Origin: Anaerolineae bacterium
GTDB taxonomy: Bacteria; Chloroflexota; Anaerolineae; Aggregatilineales; Phototrophicaceae
Assembly (NCBI GenBank): GCA_022843745.1
Contig: JALHNB010000001.1
Span: forward strand, 90,019-154,018
Direction of reading: 5' to 3'
Length of the DNA stretch: 64,000 nucleotides
Both the position numbers and the translations under genes were made by a program. The notes under the pieces were generated by a model. That model worked only from the letters and a program-made list of their open reading frames with translations, had not been told where the DNA came from and did no database searches. Of the stretch, positions 33,921-57,059 are shown piece after piece (position 1 is the first letter of the stretch; the number at the start of each line of letters is the position of its first letter).

Positions 33921-33950
33921 TTGTGAAGTTCATTAAAAAAGGGCTATAAT
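33921..33950 (+). promoter_or_regulatory. promoter of the structured RNA upstream of recX
   Basis: TTGTGA at 33921-33926 and a perfect TATAAT at 33945-33950 are separated by 18 bases. Transcription would start near 33957. No coding sequence of family character follows for 380 bases, so the promoter supports an RNA gene or long leader. Confidence 0.6.
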
Positions 33951-33956
33951 ATGTCT

Positions 33957-34324
33957 ACAGGTTCATTTATTCCGATTTAATAATCGGTAACTATTAAATA
34001 ATCTGATAGGAAAAGTTCACTCGACATGACAGCATGAAAGCTGTCTCATGGTTGTTCATTGCGATCTGGTTGAAATACGAATCCACCCCCCAAATTGGGT
34101 GGAATGGCATTTGCGCTAACACTGAGATTCGAGCCAGCAACTATAGTTTAGCCAGAGGCTCAACGGTTTTTAATAGATTCGACCTTCGTCGGCTCAGACG
34201 ATGTAGATATGCAATTAAACCTAAAACGTTAATCGAAGGCGCGAAAGCGCACGGCGCAACGTCATATCTCGCAACTTCTACGCAATGAACAACCGTGGTT
34301 TCTAAGATCACGGTTGTTTGTTTT
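33957..34324 (+). ncRNA. unidentified structured RNA or riboswitch-like leader
   Basis: About 370 bases between a promoter and a terminator. CATGGTTGTTCATTGCG at 34047-34063 pairs with CGCAATGAACAACCGTG at 34281-34297 (17 pairs, one G.T) and encloses several local hairpins: TCCACCC/GGGTGGA at 34082-34103, CGACcttcGTCG near 34170, and a GCGCgaaaGCGC hairpin near 34240. Upstream hairpins are CCGATT/AATCGG near 33972 and GACAGC/GCTGTC at 34028-34045. The 3' strand of the long closing stem is also the 5' strand of the terminator, so the two structures exclude each other, as in a riboswitch. I cannot match it to tmRNA, RNase P RNA, SRP RNA or 6S RNA. The remaining intergenic bases 33848-33920 hold nothing evident. 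Confidence 0.55.
34288..34324 (+). terminator. intrinsic terminator before recX
   Basis: AACAACCGTG at 34288-34297 pairs perfectly with CACGGTTGTT at 34309-34318 around an 11-base loop, followed by TGTTTT. It would stop the upstream RNA 12 bases ahead of the recX start, unless the 17-bp long-range stem forms instead. Confidence 0.75.
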
Positions 34325-34336
34325 GGGAATTTGGCG

Positions 34337-34993
34337 ATGCAGATCACAGCGCTGGAAATTCAGAAACGCAACAAAGAGCGCGTCAACGTTTATCTGGACG
34401 GCGAGTATGCCTTCAGCCTGAACGTAATGAAGGCGGCCACTCTGCGTAAAGGCCAGCAGTTGACCGAATCGGAAATCGCCGCATTGCAGGGCGAGGACAG
34501 TGTCGGACAAGCAGTGGACAGCGCCGCGCGTTTTCTGGCTTTTAGGCCGCGCAGCACAGCCGAAGTGCGGCGCAACCTGCTCGATAAAGGAATGCCGGAC
34601 GTGGCTATCGACAAGGCCATCGAACGGCTAGGGCAAATGGGCTATCTGGATGACCATGCCTTTGCGAAATTCTGGGTGGAGAACCGCCAGAATTTTAAGC
34701 CTTTGAGCCAACGCGCTCTGCGCTATGAACTGCGCCAAAAGGGTGTCGTGGACGACATTATCAACGAAACGCTTGGCAGCCTGGAAGATGAAAAAGCCGC
34801 CTACCATGCTGCGCAGCTTCAGGCACGCCGTCTGCGGAACAGCACACCTAAAACTTTCCGAACCAAAGTCGGTGCCTTTTTACAGCGCCGAGGCTTTTCT
34901 CATCATATCGCCCATGATGTGATTAACCAGTTGATCGAAGAAATCAGAACACAGGACGAAACATACTTTGATGAAACCCAAATCGAGGAGTAA
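34337..34993 (+). CDS. recX: regulatory protein RecX
   Basis: About 218 residues with the RecX three-helix repeat pattern: ARFLAFRPRSTAEVRRNLLD, AIERLGQMGYLDDHAFAKFW, RALRYELRQKGVVDDIINET and RGFSHHIAHDVINQLIEE. RecX binds RecA filaments and inhibits or modulates recombination. recA is not next to it, unlike in many genomes; instead it precedes rny by nine bases. The N-terminal about 55 residues (ITALEIQKRNKERVNVYLDG) form a beta-rich extension seen in many RecX. ATG at 34337 is preferred over an upstream TTG/GTG inside the RNA terminator. Confidence 0.9.
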   Translation: MQITALEIQKRNKERVNVYLDGEYAFSLNVMKAATLRKGQQLTESEIAALQGEDSVGQAVDSAARFLAFRPRSTAEVRRNLLDKGMPDVAIDKAIERLGQMGYLDDHAFAKFWVENRQNFKPLSQRALRYELRQKGVVDDIINETLGSLEDEKAAYHAAQLQARRLRNSTPKTFRTKVGAFLQRRGFSHHIAHDVINQLIEEIRTQDETYFDETQIEE

Positions 34994-35002
34994 ACACACA
35001 AA

Positions 35003-36541
35003 ATGGACATCGGCGCTGCCCTAGTAGTATTACTTGCCCTAGTGGTCGGGGTAGCTCTTGGAGGCGTGGCTCTCAATTACTATCAAACTTCGCAGGGTAA
35101 AAACCGGCGAGTACAGGCCGAAGAACAGGCCAGAGTCATCGTTGAACAGGCTACAGAACAGGCCACCCGCACAACACGCGAGGCGGATGAAAAAGCAAAA
35201 GAACTGAGTGAAGAAACCGATAAGAACCTGACCCGGCGCAGACGTGAAATGGATAAAGAGGATGAACGCCTCCGAAGCCGCCGGGAAGACCTGGACAAGC
35301 GGCTGGAAAAACTGGAACTGCGTGAGCAAAATCTGAATAAACGCCAGAGCCGCATGGATAAGCAGCAGAATGAACTTGCCAAACTGGAAGAAGAACGGAC
35401 AGCAGAACTCCAGAAAATTGCACAGATGACCCAGGAAGAAGCTCGCACGGAACTTCTGACGGTGGTCGAAATAGACTCCCGTAACGACATGGCGCGTATT
35501 ATTCGTCAGGTCGAAGCTGAAGCCCGTGAAGAAGCGGATAACCGCGCTCGTGACGTGATCTCGTTAGCCGTGCAGCGCCTGGCCTCGGATCATGTCAGCG
35601 AAATCTCGGTGAGTGTGGTACCGCTCCCAAGCGACGAAATGAAAGGGCGAATTATCGGACGCAATGGTCGTAATATTCGCGCTTTTGAGCTGGCAGCCGG
35701 AGTCGATGTCGTCGTGGATGACACGCCGGAAGCCGTGACGATCAGCAGTTTTGACCCCATCCGACGCGAAGTTGCCAAACGAGCATTGGCAAAATTGGTG
35801 GTTGATGGTCGCATTCACCCAGCGCGTATCGAAAAACTGATCGAGGATGCCAAAGAAGAAGTCGAGCAAAGTATCCGCGAAGAAGGTGAACGGGCGGCCT
35901 ATGAAACGGGCGTGCATGGCCTCCATCCTGAAGTTCTGAAGCTGCTCGGACGTTTGAAATACCGCTACAGCTATGGACAAAATCAACATGCGCACTCGAT
36001 TGAAACCGCGCATGTCGCCGGGATGATTGCCGCTGAACTCGGCGCGGATGTGAATCTCGCCAAAGCGGGTGGCCTGCTGCACGACATCGGCAAGGCGATT
36101 GACCACGAAGTCGAAGGCACACACGCGATCCTGGGGGCAGAATTTATCAAGCGTTACGGCGTGAATGCCAAGATCATTAACTGCGTTGCCAGCCATCATC
36201 ATGAAGTCGAGCAGGAATGCGTCGAGGCCTACATTGTCGAGGCTGCGGACGCGATTTCTGGCGCACGTCCTGGCGCGCGTCGCGAAAGCCTAGAATCGTA
36301 CATCAAGCGTGTCAAAACCCTCGAAGACATCGCGACCAGTTTCGATGGTGTGGAGCAGAGCTATGCGCTCCAGGCAGGGCGTGAAGTTCGCATCATCGTT
36401 CGCCCCGATGTGATCGACGATCTGGCATCGCTCCGTCTGGCGCGTGATATTGCCAAGAAAATTGAAGAAACGATGCAGTATCCGGGTCAAATCAAGGTAC
36501 AGGTCATTCGCGAGACTCGCGCTATCGATTATGCGAAGTAA
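35003..36541 (+). CDS. rny: ribonuclease Y
   Basis: A 512-residue RNase Y with its family order: N-terminal membrane helix ([20 protein letters not shown]), a long charged coiled coil to about residue 190, a KH domain ([20 protein letters not shown] near 215-235) and an HD domain ([31 protein letters not shown]). It is an endoribonuclease initiating mRNA decay at the membrane. It follows recX by nine bases and is followed without gap by a metallophosphatase gene (TAA then GTG). Confidence 0.96.
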
Positions 36542-57003: not shown

Positions 57004-57032
57004 GTAGGGGCGACTTACCGAGTCGCCCCTAC
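57004..57032. repeat. GTAGGGGCGACT-type perfect hairpin
   Basis: GTAGGGGCGACT at 57004-57015 and its exact complement at 57021-57032 flank the loop TACCG. It lies between the secreted-repeat gene and the CoA-transferase gene. Longest member of its class in the window. Confidence 0.8.
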
Positions 57033-57059
57033 GAATTTTCCTCATTAATGGAGATAAAA

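Follow-up and report, generated by a model that had tools for sequence, protein, structure and literature searches.

RNase levels are usually set through feedback on mRNA decay, and two endonuclease genes offer the closest comparison for the locus described here. In Bacillus subtilis, RNase Y autoregulates through its own 5' UTR, which it cuts; control of rny operates by mRNA decay and involves a 160-nt UTR, cleavages near the 5' end and RNase J1 (PMC10303841). In Escherichia coli, rne is controlled by faster cleavage of its mRNA (PMC10303841). The present locus resembles the former in having an RNase Y gene with its own leader as proposed control point, and the latter (Rfam rne5) in the long structured leader of a major decay-initiating endonuclease. 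The B. subtilis model nevertheless contains no antiterminator/terminator switch, whereas a structured attenuator of ~370 nt is predicted here, placed ahead of recX, the first gene of the operon. E. coli rne is also devoid of transcription terminator logic; it displays feedback on RNase level, which is a proposal in the present case, and rne5 does not match the leader of the window (the whole stretch of 64,000 nucleotides analysed).

Terminator/antiterminator riboswitches and T-box leaders share with this locus a multi-helix domain whose closing stem has a strand in common with an intrinsic terminator; unlike them, the window leader matches no Rfam family and its interior is poorly conserved. 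In the recA-recX unit of E. coli, the terminator of recA limits expression of recX, whose product regulates RecA, by leak-through. An intrinsic terminator also stands just before recX here, but it comes with a dedicated promoter and a structured leader. The neighbouring gene upstream is not recA and is divergently oriented, and the operon includes rny. To our knowledge, Anaerolineae are poorly studied and RNA regulation in this phylum is almost unstudied.

Segment 33951-34336 is probably the leader of a recX-rny operon and would work as a transcription attenuator; in the best reading, its long-range helix P1 is the antiterminator and the enclosed domain a putative sensor. Its features, together with the two genes, are as follows.

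33921..33950, + strand: promoter TTGTGA-18-TATAAT (sequence and scan, 10/12 matches)
33972..33987, + strand: 5' hairpin CCGATT-TAAT-AATCGG (predicted fold; CCTAATTGTAATATTAGG in the equivalent place in relative G023)
34028..34045, + strand: P0 hairpin GACAGC/GCTGTC, adjoining P1 (predicted folds)
34046..34063, + strand: U, the P1 5' arm and putative antiterminator strand, complementary to the terminator 5' arm (sequence, folds, co-variation)
34082..34103, + strand: P2 hairpin TCCACCC/GGGTGGA (predicted folds)
34104..34116, + strand: P3 5' strand ATGGC..TTGCGC (predicted folds; own-versus-swapped test)
34239..34250, + strand: P4 hairpin GCGC-GAAA-GCGC (sequence)
34254..34265, + strand: P3 3' strand GCGCAA..GTCAT (predicted folds)
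34281..34298, + strand: P1 3' arm, overlapping the terminator 5' arm (sequence, fold)
34288..34325, + strand: intrinsic terminator, stem 34288-34297/34309-34318 with U-rich tail (sequence, hairpin scoring)
34337..34993, + strand: recX, first gene of the operon (Pfam RecX_HTH1/2/3 above cutoff)
35003..36541, + strand: rny (RNase Y), next in the operon and probably its principal target (Pfam RNase_Y_N, KH_1 and HD above cutoff)

The initial annotation had described a promoter, a 17-bp long-range stem, a perfect terminator sharing one strand segment with that stem, and nested hairpins including a GAAA tetraloop, and all of these were recovered. TTGTGA (33921-33926) and TATAAT (33945-33950), separated by an 18-nt spacer, formed the only promoter-like site with at least 9/12 matches on the + strand from 33850 to the start of recX; many relatives displayed a TTGTG...CATAAT promoter at the equivalent place. 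P1 joined 34047-34063 (CATGGTTGTTCATTGCG) to 34281-34297 through 17 pairs, of which 16 were Watson-Crick and one G.U (34049/34295), with a duplex energy of -29.7 kcal/mol. The terminator, located between the leader promoter and recX, consisted of a 10-bp stem without mismatch, an 11-nt loop and adjacent TTTGTTTT (-20.0 kcal/mol); its U-tract was broken by one G, and a simple terminator scan missed it because of the loop length. As positions 34288-34297 belong to both helices, P1 and the terminator are mutually exclusive. We infer that the terminator is active in cells. The predicted fold of 33956-34325 reached -113 kcal/mol (z = -5.2), a value equalled by none of 100 shuffles, and the P1-closed part (34040-34300) gave z = -4.7 with no equal among 200 shuffles.

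Individual inner helices had recognizable counterparts. P4 was replaced by GCGC-UUUC-GCGC in G023, GCGUG..CACGC in G026 and GCGUGC..GCACGC in G008, and GTCATA of the P3 3' strand was kept in all three. Relatives of family f1 displayed GC-rich hairpins equivalent to P2, often with a GAURUGA-like sequence after them. A generic search for a hairpin followed by RTGR, however, was not clearly above shuffles (46/102 versus 21-40), which is why P2 and its motif are claimed for the closer families only.

Similarity at the DNA level was of little use across genera, E-values below 1e-3 being obtained for G023 and G026 only, and homologues were therefore sought via recX and rny. The region upstream of recX was collected from 94 genomes, 68 of which displayed a terminator-like hairpin (score of at least 20) before recX, compared to two out of 60 shuffles. 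Such hairpins preceded seven of 39 other genes in the window; the three that were inspected had an ordinary intergenic appearance. In most relatives the terminator ended ~15-40 nt before recX; its typical 5' arm was CAGCCGTGG, and an ACCACGG(T/C)TG-like segment was found near the leader start. The recX leaders of seven relatives (G057, G060, G017, G049, G046, G032 and G051) contained no recognizable terminator. Some of these displayed a hairpin near the start codon, which may reflect translational control.

The comparison of relatives proposed in the initial annotation indicated that competition between P1 and the terminator is conserved and co-varies in Anaerolineae. Among the 68 genomes, pairing of the terminator 5' arm with an upstream partner exceeded that of dinucleotide shuffles (mean z -1.17), while the 3'-arm control remained at -0.18. 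A second comparison, performed on 32 leaders of the same family and order, opposed each leader's own strands to strands swapped between leaders. U and the terminator 5' arm gave -19.95 kcal/mol for own pairs versus -15.76 for swapped ones (permutation SD 0.51, i.e. 8 SD; no equal in 20,000 permutations), and P3 gave -17.99 versus -15.74 (SD 0.48, 4.7 SD); since relatedness can inflate such values, and effects of relatedness and composition are not fully removed by swapping, these tests are rated strong but not final. The control pair U:P3b showed no significant difference between own and swapped strands (p 0.09). Two-sided changes occurred at several positions of the helix formed by U and the terminator 5' arm, e.g. 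from G-C to A-U and from A-U to C-G. The helix excluding the terminator was thus conserved with co-variation, strongly in the family and order of the window and more weakly outside that order (mean z 0.77 versus -0.06), where families f9 and f17 each offered isolated loci with a clear antiterminator.

Upstream of recX in loci L157 and L167, a segment of 10-15 nt (GCTGATTTTC) was complementary to the strand entering the terminator (z > 4). This suggests an antiterminator of another family, independent in appearance.

The genomic surroundings were informative as to the target. The gene upstream of the leader in the window lies on the opposite strand and encodes an NAD-binding/epimerase protein according to Pfam, and a divergent NAD-binding protein occupied the same place in G023 and G026; recA was not found directly upstream on the same strand in the window. 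Given this divergent orientation, the terminator does not serve the neighbouring protein gene, and a role as terminator of the upstream gene was rejected; as there is also no promoter-like site from the leader promoter to recX, transcripts of recX-rny must cross the switch. In seven genomes of family f7 without a recX match, leaders of like layout, assigned by layout and motif, stood directly upstream of rny and displayed a P2-like GTCCCGAT..AGGGAT hairpin and a GCCGT-type terminator. G099, of the same family, carried recX elsewhere without a leader while a leader was present at rny. The arrangement is thus leader-recX-rny in the order of the window and leader-rny in f7, a layout that favours a leader carried on the transcript of the RNase gene itself. 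The latter is viewed as retention rather than movement of the leader, since deletion of recX alone would leave it beside rny. From these arrangements, the leader appears to stay with RNase Y and not with RecX.

The locus had been said to fit none of the common RNA classes, and covariance models agreed. Rfam 15 at gathering thresholds gave no match in the window, E-values up to 10 yielded chance-level matches only, and nothing was found at the leader of 11 related loci. Scores for tmRNA, RNase P, 6S, SRP, riboswitches, T-box and rne5 all stayed below gathering threshold; ARAGORN found no tmRNA in the window, the tmRNA of this genome being located on contig 35. The main text of the structured-RNA surveys mentions neither recX nor rny, and the literature search returned no description of a recX-rny leader. 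The leader apparently represents an undescribed, conserved RNA that regulates the RNase Y operon in cis, as judged by comparative sequence analysis. Upstream of the recX region in G056, a Guanidine-II riboswitch scored above the gathering threshold (L037, 832-879, - strand).

The initial annotation had proposed the logic of a riboswitch or attenuator acting on recX-rny, or else a free-standing RNA; the former branch gained support and is developed here. RNA polymerase would start just after the TATAAT box, so that the U strand would emerge first, followed by a sensor domain of ~200 nt (P2, P3, P4 and inner helices) and then by the terminator 5' arm. Pairing of U with this arm would create P1, stabilised by the folded domain, preclude the terminator and allow transcription of recX-rny. 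If P1 failed, either because a 5' hairpin held U or because the domain was misfolded, bound or cleaved, the terminator would form at a distance of 15-40 nt from the first gene and transcription would yield no more than a short RNA. Synthesis of U long precedes that of the terminator, which gives P1 the chance to form first, and read-through would probably be the default; any condition freeing the terminator 5' arm would turn the operon off. The preferred trigger would be feedback from RNA-decay capacity, with free RNase Y or its products acting on the leader and lowering expression of the RNase Y operon, a natural first hypothesis given that the B. subtilis enzyme targets the 5' UTR of its own mRNA (PMC10303841). 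A small-molecule ligand or a different protein might act instead. Generalized to the class, an attenuator in which RNase Y or a decay-capacity signal influences a sensor that folds during transcription, and thereby decides whether antiterminator or terminator forms, can be put forward tentatively. If true, an RNase would autoregulate by transcription attenuation and not by mRNA cleavage alone; a conserved switch before RNase Y would differ from decay feedback and put RecX under the same control. The leader in any case is a well-defined element, open to experiment, and one that Rfam lacks.

Binding of a small molecule or ion by the inner domain of ~200 nt, setting the state of P1, would make the leader a riboswitch, which is a sub-case of the attenuator and overlaps with it in confidence. 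P1 and the terminator follow the standard riboswitch layout, in which the stem around a multi-helix domain competes with a terminator hairpin, and GGATGTGA recurred in 10 leaders while 0.73 were expected. The interior nevertheless varied widely from genus to genus, in length as well as in sequence, unlike most aptamers, with conservation restricted to short motifs (P2 and GGATGTGA); moreover, Rfam gave no riboswitch match at the leader, and the targeted gene codes for an RNase and has no metabolic role. This more specific identity is rather unlikely on such features. The leader was classed as a terminator/antiterminator attenuator and was not filed as a riboswitch.

The leader could also be a free-standing RNA of ~370 nt, extending from promoter to terminator and acting in trans, with recX-rny as a mere neighbour reached by leak-through. 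Its own promoter and terminator, very stable predicted fold, single copy and variable interior would suit such a gene. However, the terminator 5' arm has remained complementary to the 5' strand, which in a simple gene would make termination weaker, and the operon would then have no other visible promoter. Linkage to recX-rny or rny is maintained across the order at 15-40 nt from the start codon, and BLAST with a leader of the sister genus, unanchored on recX, matched recX loci only, so that no copy away from the operon was seen in that genus. A cis-acting leader is favoured by the short distance (~15-40 nt) from terminator to recX in most relatives, by the lack of a promoter-like site between these two in the window, and by the leaders that stand immediately ahead of rny at loci devoid of recX; a separate RNA gene is unlikely.

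Still less probable is a residue of the recA-recX unit, in which a descendant of the recA terminator would limit recX by leak-through and the leader would be a spacer folding by chance. This explanation draws on gene order: recA was still upstream of recX in some Anaerolineae families, and sampled genomes outside Anaerolineae, including L188, L191 and L194 (single-contig, ~1.5-Mb), displayed recA-terminator-recX-rny, terminator and recX being about 29 nt apart in these three. Against it stand the divergent gene for an NAD-binding protein, in place of recA, in G023, G026 and the window, the persistence of the leader before rny without recX, and a leader with a dedicated promoter, co-varying long-range helices and a fold 5 SD beyond chance. 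In other orders of the class, inspection by eye located a terminator just before recX in 20 of 22 recX-rny loci; recA was directly upstream, without a terminator, in the two others. The arrangement recA-terminator-recX-rny is possibly ancestral for the phylum. As the terminator directly follows recA in the sampled genomes of other classes, part of the present one could be an inherited recA terminator, and we infer that the attenuator may have grown from it.

In the aligned leaders of sister genus g13, a 5' hairpin GUGG..CCAC, counterpart of P0, overlapped the U strand and could occupy it, which would give the strand order 1:2, 2:3, 3:4 familiar from attenuators. Since P0 of the window adjoins P1 with hardly any overlap, no third state is put forward there. 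A trp-type mechanism based on a leader peptide, in which ribosome position selects the hairpin, could invoke this strand logic and an 84-aa ORF within the window leader, but is very improbable: the ORF had no match in the leaders of 93 relatives, where no common short ORF was seen, and a coding leader was rejected on the same ground.

Elsewhere in the window, positions 57004-57033 (GTAGGGGCGACTTACCGAGTCGCCCCTAC) lie between two genes and form an inverted repeat that is almost perfect; it may be a repeated element or a terminator.
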